Program-made: the position numbers and the translations under genes
Notes under the pieces: model-generated
Told to the model about the DNA's origin: nothing
The model's database searches: none
What the model saw: the letters and a program-made list of their open reading frames with translations, nothing else
Source: an uncultured bacterium
GTDB taxonomy: Bacteria; Cyanobacteriota; Vampirovibrionia; LMEP-6097
Length of the DNA stretch: 34,402 nucleotides
Reading direction: 5' to 3'
Assembly: GCA_903930015.1 (NCBI GenBank)
Contig: CAIYXB010000222.1
Coordinates: 1-34,402 of the forward strand
Part shown: positions 6,137-32,911 of the stretch, in pieces
Numbering within the stretch: the stretch's first letter is position 1
How the letters are laid out: each line of letters begins with the position of its first letter

Positions 6137-7699
6137 TTATAGTTTTTGTAAGTTTTTTTTGTAATCTTGAGCTTGCCTTAAAATAAGCTCTTGTTCAATA
6201 GTATCCATTTTATCCCAAACTCTATAAACCATTGACATTCTCATATTGTTTGATAATTTTTCCTTATGTTTAGCTAGAAAATCCCAATAAAAGGAATTAA
6301 AAGGGCAAGGTTCTTTTTTATCTCCTACTTTTGAGTATTTGCTTTTATAGTCGTAGTGACAATTTTTACAATAGTCGCTCATTTTGTTTACATAGTTTGC
6401 GCTACTTATATAAGGTTTTGTGGCAACTCCACCTCCATCAGCCCATTGGCTCATACCACGTGTGTTAGTGATTTCAACCCAATCCAGAGCATCTATATAT
6501 ATACCTAAATACCAGGCGTCAACCTCATCAGGATGTACTTCTGCCATAAGCGCAAAATTACCAGTTATCATAAGTCTTTGGATATGATGTGCATACGCAT
6601 TATCAAGAGAATTTTGGATGCAATTTTTTAAACAGTTCATTTTAGTTTTTCCATCCCAGTAAAATTTTGGTAATTGTTTTTCATTATCAAAAAAATTAGT
6701 TTTTGCAAAACCTGGCATTTTGATCCAATAAAATGAGCGCATATATTCTCGCCAGCCTAGAATTTGCCTTATGAACCCCTCTACCTGTGAGATCTCTAGA
6801 TCTATACTATTATTTTTGTATTTAGCTTCAGCTTTTTCTATAACTTCAAGGGGTGAGAGCATTTTGGTATTTAAAGCAAATGACAGTCTACTGTGAAAGC
6901 CATACTCATGTCTCTCTGACATAGCGTCTTGATAATCACCAAATTTTATAAGTAGATTTTCAATAAAATAATCAAGAATTTCCAGAGACTGTTTTCTGTT
7001 GATAGGATATTCAAAACACTTTGGATTTTTGATATTGCCGATAGTTTTGATTTTTGATTTTTGTATCATCTCGTAAATATCGGAAACATCATTATGAAAA
7101 GCTTTGTGAGTGGGTATATTTATTTTTGCAGGAAACTTATTCCTGTTTTCTGTATCAAAATTCCATTTACCTAAAAGTGGTTTATCTTCGTGCATAAGAA
7201 CGTTATACTTTTTGCGCATTCTTCGATAAAAACTCTCCATTAAATATTTTTCTTTTTTGCCAAACATTTCCTCTAATTCATTGCGATCAGCTAGAAAATG
7301 CTCAGCCCCATTGATTTCAAGCTCTATGTCGAGTGTTTTTAAATACTTCTTGAAATACTGATCTAGCCTATATTCGTCTGACTCTATCATTTCAAATTTA
7401 ATGAATTTTTGTGTTTGTAAAATTTCATCTAAGTTTTTTGCAAAATCTTGGTGATTATTTTTATCATCTAGCTTCAAGTAAATAAAGCTGTGACCTTTCT
7501 TCTCGTGATGATTTTTAAATTCACGCATTGCAGCAAAAAAACCTAAAACCTTTTGTATATGGTGGGAGGCGTAGTCTGTTTCGGAGCGTATCTCCATCAT
7601 TACATATTGAATTAAAGGATCAGGTTTTTCTTCAAACCAACTGTGCTTATAATTAAGTTGATCACCAAGTATTAGTCTTAATGTTTTTTCTTTTGACAT
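6137..7699 (-). CDS. Cryptochrome/photolyase family protein (FeS-BCP, deoxyribodipyrimidine photolyase-related)
   Basis: TLRLILGDQLNYKHSWF N-term; HHIQRLMITGNFALMAEVHPDEVDAWYLGIYIDALDWVEITNTRGMSQWADGG; Cys cluster YCKNCHY...CPFN. Confidence 0.93.
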   Translation of the reverse strand: MSKEKTLRLILGDQLNYKHSWFEEKPDPLIQYVMMEIRSETDYASHHIQKVLGFFAAMREFKNHHEKKGHSFIYLKLDDKNNHQDFAKNLDEILQTQKFIKFEMIESDEYRLDQYFKKYLKTLDIELEINGAEHFLADRNELEEMFGKKEKYLMESFYRRMRKKYNVLMHEDKPLLGKWNFDTENRNKFPAKINIPTHKAFHNDVSDIYEMIQKSKIKTIGNIKNPKCFEYPINRKQSLEILDYFIENLLIKFGDYQDAMSERHEYGFHSRLSFALNTKMLSPLEVIEKAEAKYKNNSIDLEISQVEGFIRQILGWREYMRSFYWIKMPGFAKTNFFDNEKQLPKFYWDGKTKMNCLKNCIQNSLDNAYAHHIQRLMITGNFALMAEVHPDEVDAWYLGIYIDALDWVEITNTRGMSQWADGGGVATKPYISSANYVNKMSDYCKNCHYDYKSKYSKVGDKKEPCPFNSFYWDFLAKHKEKLSNNMRMSMVYRVWDKMDTIEQELILRQAQDYKKNLQKL

Positions 7700-7715
7700 A
7701 TGTTAGTTTTTAAAT

Positions 7716-8189
7716 ATGAACTTGTTTATCATAAGCCTTATCTTAAATATTTTTAGTTGCGCTTTTATGACTGGTGTAATATGGCTCGTACAAGTCGTAA
7801 ATTATCCCCTTTATAGACATGTGGGTATTGAGAATTTTACTCAATATCAAGGAGAACATATACGCCGAATTACACGAGTAGTTGCTCCTATAATGATCAT
7901 TGAACTCTTTACTAGCCTTGGTTTAATTAGTTTTTTACCACTTGAACTAGCGCAGCAAAATATCCTATACCCACTATTGATAAATTTTGTTCTTGTAGTT
8001 TTGATATGGCTTGCGACAGTCTCTTATTCAGTTCCTATTCATCAAAATCTCAAAGATTCTTGGAGTCAAGAACTTTACTTGAAACTACTCGCTACGAACT
8101 GGACAAGAACTATTGCTTGGACAATTAGATCTTTTATAAACACCTTGATTTTGTATCAACTCATAATAAGATTTGAAATTATACGTTAA
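7716..8189 (+). CDS. Hypothetical polytopic membrane protein
   Basis: 157 aa, about 4 hydrophobic segments, motif QVVNYPLYRHVG..NFTQYQGEHIRRIT; divergent from photolyase gene. Confidence 0.75.
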   Translation: MNLFIISLILNIFSCAFMTGVIWLVQVVNYPLYRHVGIENFTQYQGEHIRRITRVVAPIMIIELFTSLGLISFLPLELAQQNILYPLLINFVLVVLIWLATVSYSVPIHQNLKDSWSQELYLKLLATNWTRTIAWTIRSFINTLILYQLIIRFEIIR

Positions 8190-8317: not shown

Positions 8318-9058
8318 ATGGATTTATTAGTTTTAGCTACCCAGTATTTGTTTTGGGTTGGTTTTGTTGGCATGGCTGCAGGTACTTTATACTTTTTAGT
8401 GGAAAGAGACAGTCTTCCAGAAAAATACAAGTCTACTGCTACAGTTGCAGCTCTTGTAACTTTTGTTGCAGCAATTCATTACCATGCAATGAAACATTAT
8501 GTTGGAACAGATGGTTCAATTGACTCACTGTTAACATTCCCAACAGAAATTAGATATATCGATTGGTTAGTAACAACACCATTGCTCCTAATAAAATTTC
8601 CAACAATTTTAAGGCTTCCTAAGGCTGAGTCTGGTTCTTTACTCACAAAGCTAGTTTTTGCAGATATCATAATGATTGTTACAGGATATGTTGGAGAGAC
8701 TTCTATTAACAGTGCTGGAGCAGCAACTAGTACAGGCTGGATTATGTTCGCTGTAAGTATGGTTGCTTGGCTTTATATTGTGAGTATTTTATTTGGAAAA
8801 GTAACAGAAGCTGCGCAAAAAGAGCCAGAAGAGATAAAACAAGGATTACTCTCTATGAGATCTTTTGTTCTTATAGGTTGGGCCATTTACCCAATTGGTT
8901 ATTTAGTCACTTTACTAGTATCAGGAGATGGAGCAGAAATGGCTATTGTACTAAGAGAGTTCATTTACAACATTGCTGATTTAATCAATAAAGTTGGATT
9001 TGGTCTTGTAGCTATACTTTCAATTAAGGCTGCTACAAATGCTGGCAAAGTACAATAA
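8318..9058 (+). CDS. Microbial rhodopsin, predicted outward proton pump with DTK motif
   Basis: Seven-helix type-1 rhodopsin; helix C RYIDWLVTTPLLLIKF; helix B His (AAIHYHAMK); helix G Schiff-base Lys (YNIADLINKVGFG). Confidence 0.96.
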   Translation: MDLLVLATQYLFWVGFVGMAAGTLYFLVERDSLPEKYKSTATVAALVTFVAAIHYHAMKHYVGTDGSIDSLLTFPTEIRYIDWLVTTPLLLIKFPTILRLPKAESGSLLTKLVFADIIMIVTGYVGETSINSAGAATSTGWIMFAVSMVAWLYIVSILFGKVTEAAQKEPEEIKQGLLSMRSFVLIGWAIYPIGYLVTLLVSGDGAEMAIVLREFIYNIADLINKVGFGLVAILSIKAATNAGKVQ

Positions 9059-9965
9059 ATACTTTTCACACCAATTAATATTCATTTTAATAGCATCAAG
9101 CTTTTTAGTGCTTGGTGCTATTAATTTTTTTGAAGACTTAAATTTTCAGATATATCTAGTTGCAATTTCAGTAATACTTTTTGGTATACCTCATGGCGCA
9201 TTAGATTTTGAGCTAATGAGTGAACAATCTCTTTTGAAAAAGTATATTAACAACAAAGTTAAATTTACTTTTGCATATTTATCTAGTTCATTTTTAATTT
9301 CATTGTTTTGGTTAAATTACCCTGATATTTCTCTATCTTTGTTTTTACTAATCTCCGTTTTTCATTGGGGTGAGTCAGATGCATTGCCAAAAAAAACAGA
9401 TGAATCAAACATAATTAGATATCTTTGTGAGACCACTTTTTATGGATCGGCCCTATTAAGTCTAAATACAATATTCTATAGTCAGGATTTAGTTGAATTG
9501 TATGCTTATTTAAGTGATTCAGAATTTTCCCAGAAAATAGTTGCTGTTTCAAGCCTGGTAGTACCTATAACTATCTCAGCATTCACTTATCTAATTTTTC
9601 ATTATCTTAAAAAAGGTCAAAAGCAAAAAGTCTTAGAAATATCCTTAATATTTATTACAATGATTTGCCTTAAACCTTTGATCGCGTTTTTGTTATATTT
9701 TTGTTTTTTTCACTCACCAAAACACTTGATTGATTTTTTTCATTATAAGAAAGAAAAGTCAGATTATCTAAAAAAAATGCTGCTAGCTTCTATAATCTCT
9801 ATAGGCTTTCTTTTAACTTTTAACTTTTTTATTGATAAAGACATGATTCAATATGCAAGTAGCATTAACTTAGGTCTATTTAGAAGCGTTTTTATTTGCC
9901 TCGCCGCCTTGACGATACCTCATGTCGTACTGGTTGTCTTATGGCACAGAGAATCTAGAAATTAA
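9039..9965 (+). CDS. blh: Brp/Blh family beta-carotene 15,15'-dioxygenase
   Basis: FGIPHGALDFEL, FHWGESD, FFHSPKHLIDFF, IPHVVLV..WH motifs; overlaps the rhodopsin stop by 20 bp. Confidence 0.93.
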   Translation: MLAKYNKYFSHQLIFILIASSFLVLGAINFFEDLNFQIYLVAISVILFGIPHGALDFELMSEQSLLKKYINNKVKFTFAYLSSSFLISLFWLNYPDISLSLFLLISVFHWGESDALPKKTDESNIIRYLCETTFYGSALLSLNTIFYSQDLVELYAYLSDSEFSQKIVAVSSLVVPITISAFTYLIFHYLKKGQKQKVLEISLIFITMICLKPLIAFLLYFCFFHSPKHLIDFFHYKKEKSDYLKKMLLASIISIGFLLTFNFFIDKDMIQYASSINLGLFRSVFICLAALTIPHVVLVVLWHRESRN

Positions 9966-24379: not shown

Positions 24380-25051
24380 TCAAGCATCCAAACGAAACTT
24401 ACCATCATCACCAGCAATATCGATATTGCCTCGTGCTTTCCACTCTACAAGCTTAATTGCAAGTTCATCACGTTTTGCCTTACGAGATGTAATATCATTT
24501 TCAATTTGTACAATCTCAGCTTCGATATCTTCAATCTCAGATTTTTTAATTCTTGGCTGATCCAATTTTTTGGTTAACTCATCAAGCCTAATTAAAGACA
24601 AATCATCTTGCCAATCTAGTTCCTTAATTTGTTTATGAATTTTTCGATCTAACTTTTCTCTATTATTAGGTAAATTGCTCAGGTTTTCATTGAAGTCTGC
24701 AACTTTTATTTGACCGATAGCAACCATTAAAAGAATTTCTTCTTTAGTTCTAGCAAAGCCTGGCACTAATTTACGGCAATCTTTTACATAATGATCTAAG
24801 TCAAAAAGAATTTTCTTTACTGTTACATTTTTGTAAGTTTTTAATTCCTTTTTAAACAGAGCGAGATGATCCTTCCATCCACTAGGATCTAAAGATCTCC
24901 AAAATTCTTGTAATTCAGGAACTGGTTTTTGATTAGTCCCCTTATCAAAACTAATTATTGCTGTTTTAATAGCAGCTTTTGCCATTAAAAGTTCCATCTC
25001 AGCCTTAAGCTCAGCAGGAGTTTTCTTTTCTTTCGGATTTTTATCCGTCAT
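24380..25051 (-). CDS. Hypothetical coiled-coil protein
   Basis: 223-aa hydrophilic ORF, heptad-like C-terminus. Confidence 0.65.
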   Translation of the reverse strand: MTDKNPKEKKTPAELKAEMELLMAKAAIKTAIISFDKGTNQKPVPELQEFWRSLDPSGWKDHLALFKKELKTYKNVTVKKILFDLDHYVKDCRKLVPGFARTKEEILLMVAIGQIKVADFNENLSNLPNNREKLDRKIHKQIKELDWQDDLSLIRLDELTKKLDQPRIKKSEIEDIEAEIVQIENDITSRKAKRDELAIKLVEWKARGNIDIAGDDGKFRLDA

Positions 25052-25097: not shown

Positions 25098-25223
25098 TAG
25101 CTGCTGTTAACAAAGTTCGAGAACAAGGCTTTCGAGCAGCGAAAAGGCTGAGTTTACTGGTGGTAAATGATGACTTTGAGCTGCGAGAGTAACGCAGTTA
25201 TCGGGCTTTGTCAACAGCAGCTA
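25098..25223. repeat. Hairpin element copy A
   Basis: Arms TAGCTGCTGTTAACAAAG / CTTTGTCAACAGCAGCTA; core shared with copy B. Confidence 0.85.
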
Positions 25224-26219
25224 GGCAACTTTTAAAGGAACATCCCAAGGAGCTTTAATTACACCAAAATCAATTGAACTAACAAATTCTATCGCTAGCT
25301 CTGTTGGTAATTTTTTTGGTGCCGCTGATGGGCTTGGTGGAATTATTCTTGATTGGTTTTTTTCTAAATTTCTCACTGCTAGCAAATCTGCCCTTTCACC
25401 CGCTGAATTTGCGATCGAAGTTGATAATGTATTTTGAATTGACTCAACTTCATTTGGATTATTTATTGAGACCATTGACCTCATTAAATTAATATTTTCC
25501 CCACCTGTAGCAAGTAATTCTGACGTTGATAAACTATCACCTTTAATAGTTGCATGAAAATCATGAATTAATTCTTTAGTAGAGTCAAGCAATGGACCCT
25601 TCGCTTGTTCACGCTGAATAAAGGCAACAAATTTTTTACCTCTATCGCCTCCTAGCGTAAAGATTTTCTCAAGCATCGCGTCAAGTGGGTCTTTAGTTTT
25701 CTTATTAGATTTTTTCTGTGCTTCTGGGTCTTGGCTTTGAACTGCTTGCGCTGCTATTTGGTGATTTTGCTGCGCTTCAGGCTTGTCGACAGCAGGCTTT
25801 CTTAAATTCAAGACTGATGATTCTTGATTATTAATTTTTTGAGCAAACTCAGTAGCTCTTTGTTTTAAGTCTTCATCTTTTTTTACTTTACTTGCAAGCT
25901 CACTAATAGAATTTGCTCTTTCGGTCACATCCCCAGAAACTATTCTTTGCTGAAAAGAATCTGTCTTTTGTCTTGCTTCAGAAATACTTGATCTAATATC
26001 TTTTACCGTCTCAGTGTGCTTTTGCTCTGCAAGCTCAACTTGTTTTTCAGTTAACTGTTTTGGAGCGACTGTATTAGCAGGGTTTGGTGAAACTGGCTTA
26101 GTTACAGTAGTTGAAGTTTTTGCAATAGCAGCACCCTGCTGCTGCGCTTGTTGAGCAGCTGACTTTTGTGGGATATGAGGGGCTTGAAAAGACCCAGCTT
26201 GATTACCAATACCAGACAT
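25221..26219 (-). CDS. Hypothetical Q/A/S-rich protein (possible secreted protein)
   Basis: 332 aa, disordered N-terminus QQAQQQGAAIAKTSTTVTKPVSPNPAN; shared promoter motif upstream. Confidence 0.7.
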   Translation of the reverse strand: MSGIGNQAGSFQAPHIPQKSAAQQAQQQGAAIAKTSTTVTKPVSPNPANTVAPKQLTEKQVELAEQKHTETVKDIRSSISEARQKTDSFQQRIVSGDVTERANSISELASKVKKDEDLKQRATEFAQKINNQESSVLNLRKPAVDKPEAQQNHQIAAQAVQSQDPEAQKKSNKKTKDPLDAMLEKIFTLGGDRGKKFVAFIQREQAKGPLLDSTKELIHDFHATIKGDSLSTSELLATGGENINLMRSMVSINNPNEVESIQNTLSTSIANSAGERADLLAVRNLEKNQSRIIPPSPSAAPKKLPTELAIEFVSSIDFGVIKAPWDVPLKVA

Positions 26220-26635: not shown

Positions 26636-26758
26636 CAGGACTTACGCGTTTGGCTTAGTACAAGGCATATTTGAGGCAAAAAAGCGCAGTTTACTGGTTG
26701 TAAATGAGCATTTTGAGCCGAGAATTAACGCAGTAATAAGTCAAACGCGTAAGTCCTG
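26636..26758. repeat. Hairpin element copy B
   Basis: Arms CAGGACTTACGCGTTTG / CAAACGCGTAAGTCCTG, perfect 17 bp, extended to 22 bp with one mismatch. Confidence 0.88.
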
Positions 26759-26828: not shown

Positions 26829-27389
26829 TTAAGATCCGGTCGCAGCTGCACCAGCGCCTTTAATTGATTCTTCATCTTTTTTAGATTTTGCACCTGGATC
26901 AATTGCTTGATCCTTAGCTGGACTAGGTATTGCGGTAAAAGCTACTTTATCTGTAGTAACTTTACTTCCTATATCTCTACTTTCATTTAAGAAAAGTAAG
27001 TCTTCATTTGGTTCGACTTTAGCATCGAATTTAAACTTAGATTCTTTCGGCAGTTTAGCTTTTTCCTCAGATTCTTTCTCTAGTTTAGCTTCTTGCTTTT
27101 CTTGTTCTTTTTGAATATCATGTTGTTCTTTTTCAATTTCCTTAAAAGCTTCAACATTTTCTTTAATTTCAGCAGAACTTGCGTCTGCTCTATGTCCTGC
27201 TGCTTCAGCTTGATATCCTTTAGCTTCGTTTTGCAATGAAAGAATTTTACTTCTTAGGCTATTCTGCTTAGAACCATCCTCTTCACCAAGAGAATCTAAT
27301 TCTCTATTGATAGTAGAAGCTTTTATATTAGCTTGGTTTGCATTGTTGGTTGCAGTTTGAGCGAGTTGATTATGAGTTGTACTTTCCAT
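26829..27389 (-). CDS. Hydrophilic coiled-coil hypothetical protein
   Basis: 186 aa, N/Q/S/T-rich N-terminus MESTTHNQLAQTATNNANQANIKAST, E/K-rich coiled coil; SD AGAGGA. Confidence 0.7.
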   Translation of the reverse strand: MESTTHNQLAQTATNNANQANIKASTINRELDSLGEEDGSKQNSLRSKILSLQNEAKGYQAEAAGHRADASSAEIKENVEAFKEIEKEQHDIQKEQEKQEAKLEKESEEKAKLPKESKFKFDAKVEPNEDLLFLNESRDIGSKVTTDKVAFTAIPSPAKDQAIDPGAKSKKDEESIKGAGAAATGS

Positions 27390-27449: not shown

Positions 27450-27474
27450 AGGTGAATTAAAGTCACAGAATTGC

Positions 27475-27488: not shown

Positions 27489-28919
27489 ATGCAGGCAAGT
27501 TCTAAGCATTCTATAACTCTTGATAAGAATTATGAAGCAATTCAGTCAGTAACGGCCATCGTTGCTGATACACTCGGACCTGACGGTCTCAATGTGATGC
27601 TTGTTGACGAATTTGGTAGCTCATTTTGTACAAATGATGGTGTTGCCATTTTAAGTAATTTACAAATAAAAAATCCGATCGCAAAATATGCAAAAGATGC
27701 TGCCCTTGCTCAAGAAGAAAGAGTAGGAGATGGAACTACCAGTGTTTGCGTAATGCTTGAAGCAATTTTAAAAAAATGCATTGAAAAATTAAAGACCGAA
27801 GATATTGGCGCAATTAAACTCTCTAAAGAAATTCAAATCGCCAAAGAAATAATCAAAACCATAATCAAAAAAAATTCAAAGAAAATCGAAGACATTGAAG
27901 ATTCCCATCTATTTTTTGCAAGTCGTATTGCTTCAAGGAACGATGAAGAATTAAGTAAAGTAGTTTCAGAACTATACAGAAAAAGCTTTAAAAATTACGT
28001 GGGTGAATTTTTTGATTTGAGTAATCATATTTACGGTTATAAGAATCAAGAAGAGAGAGTAGTAGAAGGCCTGCTATTGAAGAAAAAAGCACATCTCAAT
28101 TCAAAAACCCGAATCAATAATGGAAGTCTACTCATGATCAAAGGTTCATTTGAACCACAACCTATCTCAAGTGAAGCTGCAAACACTGATGAAGGGGTAA
28201 GGAAATTTTCTAATAACGTACAAGAAATACTCGAAGTATGTAAAAAAATCAAAAAGAAAAACATAGAAGCTGTTTTTTGTTCAGGATCAATATTCCAACA
28301 AGCAGAAGAATTACTTGTCAAAGAAGGAGTTTTTGTAATCTCTCATCTCAGTGAAAGTCAATTCAACAATATTCAAAAACTCAGCAAAGCTAAAGTCGTG
28401 ACAAGATCTGAATTATTTGAACAAGATCAAAATTTCTTTCTTGAGAAGATTGGTGAATTTAAATCAATAACATGGGATGAAGGACTAAAAGCCTTTTTAA
28501 TATCAGGTCCAAGATTTAATTTTAATAGTTTAATTTTAAGTCAAAATACAAAAACACTCTTAGAAGAAAGAGTCCGAGTTGCTGAGGATTCAGCAAAAGT
28601 TTTTTATGCAACTTTTAAAGAAGGTTACTCTGAAGGTGGAGGTGTTACCGAGATCATAGCCTTGAAAGAATTTCGAGAATCATATCCTAACAGCCCTATC
28701 TTGGATATACTTGAAGCTGCTCTTACAAGTATTTTTAGACAAATAAAAATCAATTCTGATTATCGTGAAGAGTTTTTAGAGCTGAGACAAAAATACAAAG
28801 AAGCTCAGGTAGTAGATTCTACTCGAGTAAAAACATCTATTGTGGATATTTCTTTTGATCTGTGCTCACAAATTATTAAAGTTAAAAGTGTTGTTTTAGC
28901 AAATAATTGCTCAGATTAA
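27489..28919 (+). CDS. Group II/III-type (thermosome/CCT-like) chaperonin
   Basis: DTLGPDGLNVMLVDEFGSSFCTNDGVAILSNLQIKNPIAKYAKDAALAQEERVGDGTTSV; apical IEAVFCSGSIFQQAEELLVKEGVFVISHLSESQFNNIQKLSKAKVVTR; C-term SEGGGVTE. Confidence 0.9.
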   Translation: MQASSKHSITLDKNYEAIQSVTAIVADTLGPDGLNVMLVDEFGSSFCTNDGVAILSNLQIKNPIAKYAKDAALAQEERVGDGTTSVCVMLEAILKKCIEKLKTEDIGAIKLSKEIQIAKEIIKTIIKKNSKKIEDIEDSHLFFASRIASRNDEELSKVVSELYRKSFKNYVGEFFDLSNHIYGYKNQEERVVEGLLLKKKAHLNSKTRINNGSLLMIKGSFEPQPISSEAANTDEGVRKFSNNVQEILEVCKKIKKKNIEAVFCSGSIFQQAEELLVKEGVFVISHLSESQFNNIQKLSKAKVVTRSELFEQDQNFFLEKIGEFKSITWDEGLKAFLISGPRFNFNSLILSQNTKTLLEERVRVAEDSAKVFYATFKEGYSEGGGVTEIIALKEFRESYPNSPILDILEAALTSIFRQIKINSDYREEFLELRQKYKEAQVVDSTRVKTSIVDISFDLCSQIIKVKSVVLANNCSD

Positions 28920-29336
28920 GACTTGCTGAATTTTAATCAACTTTCCCGCATCCTCAGGAGATTTAAGTTTAATTTGGTTATATAACTCACCATTACCTAG
29001 AGAAATATCTAATTGCTGCTTTCCCAACATACCTATTCTAAAAAGTTTTCCCAGATATCCACATTGAGTGGAACCATCAGGATTGATAATTTCTACGCTT
29101 ACTCTTTTACCTACTAAGGTGCCATACTTTTGATCTGTGACTCTTTCATAAAGAGCACGCAAACTATCCCCATTATCATCAGCATTAACTTCGCCCATGT
29201 ATGTGACCACATCTTTTGAAGAAGGCTCATGAAGCTCAACAATTGAGGTTGAAACAGTACTAAGCTTCTCTTCGGAAGCTCTAATAGGCTTTTGAGCTTC
29301 CCATCTCTTACTACTAGCATCAACACCATTAACCAA
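28911..29336 (-). CDS. Hypothetical protein
   Basis: 141 aa, convergent with chaperonin; TTG start uncertain. Confidence 0.55.
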   Translation of the reverse strand: MVNGVDASSKRWEAQKPIRASEEKLSTVSTSIVELHEPSSKDVVTYMGEVNADDNGDSLRALYERVTDQKYGTLVGKRVSVEIINPDGSTQCGYLGKLFRIGMLGKQQLDISLGNGELYNQIKLKSPEDAGKLIKIQQVLI

Positions 29337-29464: not shown

Positions 29465-30820
29465 ATGGGAAAATCATTGTTTGAAAAAGTTTGGGATGCA
29501 CATGTAGTTGAAGAATTACCTGGAAATAATAGTTTGGTTTTTATGGATCAAATTATTGCTCACGAAATTACAACTCCACAAGGGGCAATTCAAATTGATG
29601 AAGAATTCGACGGTAGAATTTATGATGCAAAAAGAATTTTAGCTATTAATGACCACGTTGCACCAGCGAAAGATACTGCAACAGCAATACAAGCAGAAGT
29701 GCTAAGAAAATGGTCAAAGAAACATGGTATTAGACATTTTGATATTGGCGAAAATGGAATCTGTCACGTTGTAGCACCGGAAAGAGGTTATGTGCAACCA
29801 GGTATGACTTTATGCTGCGGTGATTCGCACACTTGTACCAATGGTGCTTTTGCATGTTTTGCACTTGGGATAGGTACTACTGCGAACGCAGGTGCAATGC
29901 TCTCACAGTGCTTACTTCTTAAAAAACCAAAAGTAATGAACATCAAAGTCACTGGTAAACGCAAAGAAGGTGTTTACGCAAAAGATCTTATACTTGCAAT
30001 TATCGAAAAAGTAACGTTTAAAGGAGGCACTGGATATGTTCTTGAATTTACTGGAGAAGCAATCGAAGCTTTAGACATGGAAGAAAGAATGACTGTCTGC
30101 AATATGGCGATCGAAGCTGGTGCTACAAGTGGCATGATTGCTGCTGATGAAACTACTTTTAAATATCTTAAGGGCAAAGAACAAATTTCAGATGCTGATT
30201 TTGATAATTTAAAGAAAGAATGGTCTGCTTTCAAACCTGATGCTGATGCGCAGTACGATAAAGTTGTTGAACTTGATGTAACAAATCTTGATCCAATGGT
30301 TACTTGGGGAATTAATCCTGGGGAAGCAGTGCAGACATCTGGTGTTATCCCAAGTAACGCAGAAGACAAAGCATTAGAGTACATGGGATTAAAAACAGGT
30401 GATAAAGTTTCAGATCTTGAATTAGATCAAGCTTTTATTGGAAGCTGTACCAACGCAAGAATTTCAGATTTAAGAATCGCAGCTGCGATTCTTAAAGGAC
30501 AAAAAGTTTCTATCCCGACTATCATTACACCTGGTTCACAACTTGTAAAAAGACAAGCAGAAAAAGAAGGTTTACATGATATTTTCCAAGATGCAGGAGC
30601 TTTGTGGACTCATGCAAGCTGTGGTCCTTGCCTTGGCATGAGCATGGGTGTTGTAGCCCCACAAAACAGATGTATCTCATCTACTAATAGAAATTTTCCT
30701 GGGCGCATGGGCATGGGAGCAAGAACACATCTTGCAAGCCCTGCAACTGTTGCAGCATCTGCAATTACAGGTAAAATTACAAAAGCTCAAGATTTAAAAA
30801 GTTTTGTTGCTAGTAAATAA
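29465..30820 (+). CDS. leuC: 3-isopropylmalate dehydratase large subunit
   Basis: CCGDSHTCTNGAFACFALGIGTT, FIGSCTNARISDLRIAA, ASCGPCLGMSMG, NRNFPGRMG. Confidence 0.95.
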   Translation: MGKSLFEKVWDAHVVEELPGNNSLVFMDQIIAHEITTPQGAIQIDEEFDGRIYDAKRILAINDHVAPAKDTATAIQAEVLRKWSKKHGIRHFDIGENGICHVVAPERGYVQPGMTLCCGDSHTCTNGAFACFALGIGTTANAGAMLSQCLLLKKPKVMNIKVTGKRKEGVYAKDLILAIIEKVTFKGGTGYVLEFTGEAIEALDMEERMTVCNMAIEAGATSGMIAADETTFKYLKGKEQISDADFDNLKKEWSAFKPDADAQYDKVVELDVTNLDPMVTWGINPGEAVQTSGVIPSNAEDKALEYMGLKTGDKVSDLELDQAFIGSCTNARISDLRIAAAILKGQKVSIPTIITPGSQLVKRQAEKEGLHDIFQDAGALWTHASCGPCLGMSMGVVAPQNRCISSTNRNFPGRMGMGARTHLASPATVAASAITGKITKAQDLKSFVASK

Positions 30821-32151
30821 TGAAAACTATTGTAAAAAAGTTAGAAAAAAAAATCTTCATATCACTTGATATACCGGGAGATAAATCAATTTCTCATAGA
30901 TCAGTAATTTTTGGATCAATTATTCCCGGTGAAACTACTATAAGAAATTTTTTACAGGGTGATGATTGCAAGCATACACTTGAAGCTTTTGAAGCCATGG
31001 GCGTTGAAGCTAGTCTCAAAGACAAGGTTCTAGTCATCAAAGGTAAAAGCCTTGACTCAATGCAAAAACCCAAAAAAGATATTTATCTAGGAAATTCCGG
31101 TACAAGCATAAGGCTTTTATCTGGGCTTTTTTCTGGATTGCCATTTACAACAACTCTGACTGGGGACGCATCACTACAAAAAAGACCAATGAAAAGAGTT
31201 ATTGATCCACTTGCAAAAATGGGCGCGAAGATTGAATCCTTAGAAGGTGGACTTGCTCCACTCAAGATCAATCCCAATGAAGAAAAAAATCATTTGAAAG
31301 CAATACAATATGATTCCCCAATTGCTTCAGCGCAAGTAAAATCTTGTTTGATTTTGGCTGCCTTGAGTATTGATGGCGAAACAACAATCACTGAACCGCA
31401 TCTATCTAGAGACCATACCGAAAGAATGCTGAAATATTTAGGTGCCCAAATCATCACAGAGGGTACTAAAATCAAAATCAATGGCAAAGAAGCTTATAAG
31501 CAATTAAAACCAAAAGAAATTTTTGTACCTGGTGATATCTCAAGTGCTGCTTTTTTTATGGTTGCTGCTGCAATTTTGGAGAATTCAGAAATCACAGTTA
31601 AAAACATTGGGCTTAATCCAAGTCGAACAGGTATTCTTGAAGCATTTGATTTAATGAATGTTAATTATGAGATTATAAATCCAAGAGAAGTGAATAATGA
31701 ACCAATTGCTGATATAAAAGTAAAAACTTCTAATATTAAAGCGGCTGAAATTGGTGGGGAATTAATTCCTAAGTTAATTGACGAAATTCCTATAATCGCC
31801 ATACTCGCTGCACAAGCGCAAGGTACCACTGTAATAAAAGACGCAGAAGAATTGAGGGTTAAAGAATCAAATAGAATAACAAGTACTTTAAACATGCTAT
31901 CAAAACTAGGTGTTGATGCTAAGGAAACTCCTGACGGAATGATTATTAAAGGGAGATCTAGAAAGCCTTTTGAGGTTAGCTATCTAACAGAAATTGATAG
32001 TCATGGCGACCATAGACTTGCTATGAGTAGTGCAATAGCAGCTCTTTACTCTACTCAACCAATTGAAATACAAAAAACCGAATTTGTACAAACTTCTTTC
32101 CCAAATTTTTTTGATTTACTCTACAAGCTTTATCACTCTGATGAAAATTAA
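30820..32151 (+). CDS. aroA: 3-phosphoshikimate 1-carboxyvinyltransferase (EPSP synthase)
   Basis: IPGDKSISHRSVIFGSI, YLGNSGTSIRLLSG, SRDHTERML, RVKESNRI, HGDHRLAMS; TAATG overlap with leuC. Confidence 0.96.
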   Translation: MKTIVKKLEKKIFISLDIPGDKSISHRSVIFGSIIPGETTIRNFLQGDDCKHTLEAFEAMGVEASLKDKVLVIKGKSLDSMQKPKKDIYLGNSGTSIRLLSGLFSGLPFTTTLTGDASLQKRPMKRVIDPLAKMGAKIESLEGGLAPLKINPNEEKNHLKAIQYDSPIASAQVKSCLILAALSIDGETTITEPHLSRDHTERMLKYLGAQIITEGTKIKINGKEAYKQLKPKEIFVPGDISSAAFFMVAAAILENSEITVKNIGLNPSRTGILEAFDLMNVNYEIINPREVNNEPIADIKVKTSNIKAAEIGGELIPKLIDEIPIIAILAAQAQGTTVIKDAEELRVKESNRITSTLNMLSKLGVDAKETPDGMIIKGRSRKPFEVSYLTEIDSHGDHRLAMSSAIAALYSTQPIEIQKTEFVQTSFPNFFDLLYKLYHSDEN

Positions 32152-32911
32152 ACCTCATATTGAAAATTTTTTAAAAGATTTAGGAGCTGGAGCTAATTTC
32201 TTAGGACACCAAATATATATTGTTGGTGGGGCTGTTCGCAATCATATCTATCAAGAATTACATAACCACGATTCAACAAAACCACAAGATCTTGATTTAT
32301 TGATTAATACAAATGCAATTACTTTTGCAAAACAATTTCAAAAATATTACGAAGATAACAACGATGATCACATTAGCTTTGATATTCTGGAAGAATTTGA
32401 ACAATTCGGCACTGTGAAAATTAATCACCCAGAAGATAGTACCTGTTTGATTGAAATTGCTAGTACGCGCAGCGAAATTTATAAAGAACCTGCTGATTTT
32501 CCAGTTGTCACTCTTGTCAGTTCGATTGAAACTGATTTACCAAGAAGAGATTTTTCAATCAATGCCTTATTAATGTCACTCAACAAGGTAGATTACGGTG
32601 AGATCATTGACCACGTTGGTGGAATAAATGATATTCAAAATAAGCTTGTGAGAGTTTTTCATGACTATAGCTTTATTGATGATCCCACGAGAATCTATAG
32701 AGCGGTAAGAATGATGCTTGAATATGATTTTCAAATTGAAGTTCATACTTTGGAATTACTTACAGCTGCTCTAAAACACCCTGATTTTGATTCTTGGTAT
32801 AAAAAACGTAAAAATAGATTTGTGATTGAAAAAAATAATATCACCAAATTAGGTGAAGACAAAAATCAAAAAGCAAAAGATTTTTTTACTTGCTTCCACC
32901 ATAACTATTAA
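32141..32911 (+). CDS. Poly(A) polymerase/CCA tRNA nucleotidyltransferase-like head domain, short
   Basis: YIVGGAVRNHIY, DLDLL, LPRRDFSINALLMSL, DDPTRIYRAVRMMLEYDF; start revised to the ATG overlapping the aroA stop. Confidence 0.85.
   Translation: MKIKPHIENFLKDLGAGANFLGHQIYIVGGAVRNHIYQELHNHDSTKPQDLDLLINTNAITFAKQFQKYYEDNNDDHISFDILEEFEQFGTVKINHPEDSTCLIEIASTRSEIYKEPADFPVVTLVSSIETDLPRRDFSINALLMSLNKVDYGEIIDHVGGINDIQNKLVRVFHDYSFIDDPTRIYRAVRMMLEYDFQIEVHTLELLTAALKHPDFDSWYKKRKNRFVIEKNNITKLGEDKNQKAKDFFTCFHHNY

Follow-up and report, generated by a model that had tools for sequence, protein, structure and literature searches.

A divergent bacterial Group III-type chaperonin outside the dnaK operon in a Caenarcaniphilales-type Melainabacterium

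The locus described here raises two questions: to which chaperonin group does a protein encoded next to a block of orphan genes belong, and are these neighbours its clients? The window, that is, the whole stretch of 34,402 nucleotides that was analysed, comes from a Caenarcaniphilales-type Melainabacterium (Cyanobacteriota), the family of which was placed via named relatives. Group III chaperonins are rare; they have been described mainly from Firmicutes and in dnaK operons, and it is disputed whether they are ancestral or of archaeal origin.

Inspection of the plus strand showed that the reading frame at 27489–28919 was open throughout from an ATG start and encoded a 476-aa Cpn60/TCP-1 chaperonin, with a match to PF00118 (Cpn60_TCP1) spanning the protein length (6.2e-59). 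An alternative TTG start at 27471 is possible; the ATG is favoured by the homologues. The ORF of about 476 aa proposed in an earlier note on this DNA was therefore real. The ATPase motifs named there were found at residues 48–55 (TNDGVAIL) and 80–84 (GDGTT), and the archaeal-like apical stretch that it had recognized, EAVFCSGSIFQQAEELLVKEGVFVI, was present as well. The features of the gene are given below, with residues aligned to Ch-CPN, the Group III chaperonin of Carboxydothermus hydrogenoformans (PDB 5x9u/5x9v; An et al. 2017, PMC5635000), for which the roles of the ATP-site residues have been established.

27489–28919, plus strand: Group III chaperonin gene, 476 aa (PF00118; tree; AF2 model; Foldseek 5x9v/5x9u)
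27630–27641, plus strand: TNDG stem-loop motif; N49 and D50 correspond to Ch-CPN N55 and D56, D50 being catalytic (alignment; roles from PMC5635000)
27726–27740, plus strand: GDGTT phosphate-binding loop; D81 and T83 correspond to Ch-CPN D87 and T89 (alignment)
27936–27938, plus strand: R150, corresponding to Ch-CPN R155, the Group III substitute for the Group II nucleotide-sensing lysine (alignment)
28152–28274, plus strand: built-in lid (helical protrusion), about residues 222–262 (model helices 228–231 and 234–256; alignment)
28587–28589, plus strand: D367, corresponding to catalytic Ch-CPN D373 (alignment)
28752–28817, plus strand: C-terminal deletion site, residues 422–443, where the inter-ring helix and the adenine hairpin GxDxxTG are absent (alignment)

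The catalytic and phosphate-binding residues of Ch-CPN were kept in the window protein (N49, D50, D81, T83, R150 and D367), as was the GGG motif. The six-residue nucleotide-sensing loop that precedes R150 in archaeal Group II proteins was missing. Absence of this loop marks Group III chaperonins (PMC5635000; PMC12696368), and the Arg at the Ch-CPN 155 position is likewise a Group III feature, whereas the sensing loop itself is typical of Group II thermosomes. Measured from landmark to landmark, the lid segment was 68 residues long in the window protein and in Ch-CPN, 72 in archaeal Group II proteins and 48 in GroEL, so the roughly thermosome-like length suggested earlier was right to within 4 residues. 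The AF2 model (pLDDT 89.5), a high-confidence prediction of the fold, placed lid helices at residues 228–256; the helical protrusion and the catalytic residues, whose lack would have spoken against the earlier reading, were both present. The Group I features, lack of an apical lid and membership of the GroEL clade, were not found.

Profile comparison gave the same picture. The window chaperonin scored 132.7 bits with the NCBIfam thermosome models versus 76.9 bits with the GroEL models; with custom profiles, Group III (240.6 bits, from a profile built without any Caenarcaniphilales sequence) ranked above archaeal Group II (124.1 bits) and GroEL (68.9 bits). The best Foldseek matches of the model were 5x9v and 5x9u. 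By sequence, the top PDB matches were an ancestral chaperonin and Ch-CPN, with thermosomes and CCT next. As a separate observation, PDB entry 9rwq_N is labelled an ancestral Group II protein (ACII), yet it matches the Symbiobacterium Group III chaperonin at 678 bits; it may be the protein that PMC12696368 describes, by another name, as a Group III ancestor.

In the tree, all Caenarcaniphilales chaperonins, the window protein included, formed one clade (support 98/97), which joined the remaining bacterial Group III chaperonins at 97/94 in a 37-row tree and at 88/88 in a 29-row tree. CCT was compared via profile scores alone, its sequences being left out of the trees. The terminal branch of the window protein was the longest in the tree (1.4), so that its exact position in the clade is less secure than the fact that it belongs there. 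A placement with GroEL, named beforehand as evidence against the earlier reading, was rejected (p-AU 8e-6). That the protein is a divergent GroEL paralogue is scarcely conceivable: GroEL models do match the N-terminal equatorial part, and GroEL lacks the sensing loop too, but the lid segment is 20 residues longer than that of GroEL, the profile scores and the topology test speak against it, and a true GroEL is encoded elsewhere in the genome.

Direct acquisition of an archaeal Group II thermosome by the Caenarcaniphilales is also improbable. The top NCBIfam models were thermosomes, and a clade of all Caenarcaniphilales proteins with archaea was not rejected (p-AU 0.08). Against this stand the missing sensing loop, the R that replaces the sensing K/S/T/A, the four-residue lid deletion common to Group III, the doubled Group III profile score and the rejection of the window protein with archaeal sequences (p-AU 3e-6). 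Where the entire Caenarcaniphilales clade came from is less certain than where the window protein belongs. Tree, profiles, AlphaFold/Foldseek, lid length and the absent sensing loop agree that the window protein is a bacterial Group III-type chaperonin. The earlier note was right that the protein is not GroEL, and its thermosome/CCT-like, group II/III assignment can be sharpened: the group is III and not II. It was also observed that two chaperonins of 464–468 aa on IMG/VR contigs classed as viral (L069 and L070) are of Group II type and group with archaeal thermosomes.

Of the 9 genomes of the host's order, 8 had the gene, and the one without it is only 54% complete; it was also present in 3 of 5 genomes of a second family of the same class (f5), the named members of which likewise bear Caenarcaniphilales names. 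These homologues had to be sought with an alignment query, a single-sequence scan of the genome contigs having given no match. Among 292 genomes drawn from the phylum, none yielded another Group III protein, and the full-length matches were GroEL; GroEL-like full-length matches (E ~1e-47) in other Vampirovibrionia families were inspected and proved to be true GroEL. A 6-kb contig of a Gloeobacterales MAG encoded a Group III protein; this contig could have been misbinned. On G012:C88 (L030), the full gene was followed downstream by two additional C-terminal chaperonin fragments, at 7592–7816 and 8571–8771, one of them with a stop. In a literature search of partial coverage, no report of a Group III chaperonin in Melainabacteria was found.

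The separate groEL and groES that the earlier note had suggested looking for were found together on contig C140 of the window genome, and dnaK lay on contig C133, not on the contig of the chaperonin. A search for prefoldin in this genome found none, with the control search positive in 4 of 4 archaea, and no HrcA/CIRCE element was detected in the window or at groESL. The picture of a non-GroEL chaperonin that bears a lid, looks ATPase-competent by its residues and exists alongside GroEL/GroES in a bacterium was borne out.

Close pairs of relatives gave dN/dS values of 0.056, 0.062 and 0.080, which indicated that the gene is kept by selection; none of the relatives measured is close to the window. 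The Group III chaperonin evolves much faster than GroEL: in one genome pair its identity was 38%, versus 82% for GroEL and 84% for leuC. The excess divergence of the window copy lay mostly in the C-terminal equatorial part (29% identity, versus 41% when the family's other genera are compared with each other). The lid was conserved, with 46% mean identity to the family versus 34% for the whole apical domain.

The C-terminal landmarks were separated by 35 residues in the window copy versus 50–57 in other Group III proteins. In Ch-CPN, F461 on a C-terminal hairpin lies near the adenine, and L439 packs across the ring interface (PMC5635000). The adenine hairpin (Ch-CPN F461–M469) was lost in the window copy alone and kept in 10 of 10 relatives; its absence appears to be a local loss and was not used as a Group III criterion. 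A frameshift concealing the hairpin was ruled out, as the other frames at the deletion site held no trace of it. At the L439 position, other aligned Group III proteins, archaeal sequences and f5 have L, I or V. The window's family instead has H, A, N, E, K or Q there, followed by a shortened helix. The hydrophobic residue of this contact between the rings was lost in 8 of 8 proteins of that family, and in the window copy the position itself is absent.

Because the adenine hairpin is absent, nucleotide handling may differ in the window copy, and with the family-wide loss of the inter-ring Leu, ring–ring coupling and nucleotide affinity are probably altered in this lineage. The missing F461 hairpin and the C-terminal equatorial divergence also mean that the ATPase activity of the window protein could be weak or lost. 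A bolder reading of the same residues, speculative and unlikely, is that the Caenarcaniphilales branch would have abandoned standard double-ring coupling while still closing by its lid, and the window lineage the standard adenine pocket too, to give a Group III machine that works as a single ring, or with its rings uncoupled, and uses nucleotides differently. That the protein is instead a degenerating or non-ATPase derivative, an MKKS/BBS-like scaffold whose nucleotide binding was destroyed by the deletion, we regard as unlikely. The lost hairpin, the long terminal branch and the low identity beside a well-conserved GroEL would fit such a derivative, but the ATP-site residues and the GGG motif are all retained at 38% identity, the ORF is intact, and conservation in the lid exceeds that in the rest of the apical domain.

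The neighbourhood of the gene bears on the second question.

24380–25051, minus strand: orphan gene w24380, helical/coiled-coil, confined to the host's family; neighbour of flgK in three relatives (G001, G004 and G005)
25221–26219, minus strand: fast-evolving orphan gene w25221, adjoining w24380; 22–25% identity to positional homologues
26829–27389, minus strand: orphan gene oriented divergently to the chaperonin gene; fast-evolving, with 23% identity to positional homologues
28911–29336, minus strand: 141-aa orphan ORF between the chaperonin and leuC, in this genome only, overlapping the chaperonin stop by 9 nt
29465–30820, plus strand: leuC-type aconitase-family gene, a downstream neighbour conserved in five genomes
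30820–32151, plus strand: aroA, a conserved downstream neighbour
32120–32911, plus strand: CCA-adding/poly(A) polymerase-head gene (cca), a conserved downstream neighbour

The distance from the chaperonin to leuC was 14–73 nt in four relatives versus 545 nt in the window, where the convergent ORF at 28911–29336 interrupts the otherwise tight chaperonin-leuC-aroA-cca string. A chimeric MAG was rejected, because the leuC-aroA-cca synteny is common to four other MAGs and GC3 is uniform. Group III genes, with one exception, belong to the dnaK operon (PMC5635000; PMC5220055), whereas no Caenarcaniphilales Group III gene sits in one.

The earlier suggestion of a dedicated client in the orphan block did not survive comparison with relatives. 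The block adjoins the chaperonin in G000, G002 and G006, and both evolve fast. However, in G001, G004 and G005, w24380 directly follows flgL, flgK and one more orphan, apart from the chaperonin; in G008 it lies on a different contig from the chaperonin; and the f5 genomes with the chaperonin have neither w24380 nor flgK. That the chaperonin is dedicated to the orphan proteins next to it is thus very improbable, and the block is more likely flagellum-linked than a client set, a view drawn from position only. A fold search with w24380 indicated a helical protein with no significant match. Between w25221 and the protein that lies between flgK and w24380 in those three relatives, hhalign gave a probability of 1.8%, and only the position matches. 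The intergenic stretches 25098–25223 and 26636–26758 were noticed to hold hairpin repeats that belong to one family and resemble a REP or MITE element; the repeat core GTTTACTGGTNGTAAATGA occurred in 21 copies in the genome versus 0 in a reversed control. Elsewhere in the window, a microbial rhodopsin gene (8318–9058; PF01036, 5.5e-53; pump motif D-T-K by eye) is followed by a Brp/Blh beta-carotene dioxygenase gene (9039–9965; TIGR03753), a predicted light-driven pump with a retinal-making gene in a non-photosynthetic cyanobacterial relative; a literature search on Melainabacteria and rhodopsin returned nothing clearly on such a pump.

We consider it likely that the protein is a working Group III chaperonin that closes by its lid and is secondary to GroEL/GroES. 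By homology with Ch-CPN, its subunits would assemble into octameric rings; ATP bound at TNDG/GDGTT/R150/D367 would move the stem loop and shut the ring with the built-in lid, enclosing an unfolded client without GroES, and hydrolysis would reopen the ring. It would work beside GroEL/GroES and without prefoldin, on a client set of its own and not on the adjacent orphan proteins. A vertically kept, fast-changing Cyanobacteriota copy outside the dnaK operon adds a new branch to the question of Group III origin. It is also an experiment of nature on which elements of the ATP pocket and of the ring interface are dispensable in a lid-closing chaperonin, and given its structural departures, its ring number and nucleotide use merit measurement.

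Compared with known systems, the window protein shares the Cpn60 fold and the GDGTT motif with GroEL (Group I), which has no lid and needs GroES. With the archaeal thermosome (Group II; 1q3r, 3kfb) it shares the built-in lid, the ATPase motifs and the overall fold; the sensing loop, the four-residue longer lid segment and the prefoldin partners of the thermosome have no counterpart in the window protein or genome. The chaperonins of Seinonella and Symbiobacterium (L066 and L067) likewise fell in Group III in the tree, but their genes lie in hrcA-(grpE-dnaK)-dnaJ operons, unlike those of the Caenarcaniphilales: the Seinonella locus reads hrcA-cpn-grpE-dnaK-dnaJ (hrcA and grpE named by eye), and the Symbiobacterium locus, hrcA-cpn-dnaJ (hrcA named by eye), confirms the operon placement in part. 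Ch-CPN was the closest solved fold (Foldseek 1.6e-32) and shares the missing sensing loop, the equal lid length, the same catalytic residues and a host that also has GroEL. The window protein differs from it in being only ~22% identical, in lying outside the dnaK operon, in a host that is not a thermophilic Firmicute, in the L439 equivalent not kept in its family and in the deleted adenine hairpin. It truly belongs to Group III; what is new is its lineage and its gene context, and the machine itself varies a known kind and does not found a new one.
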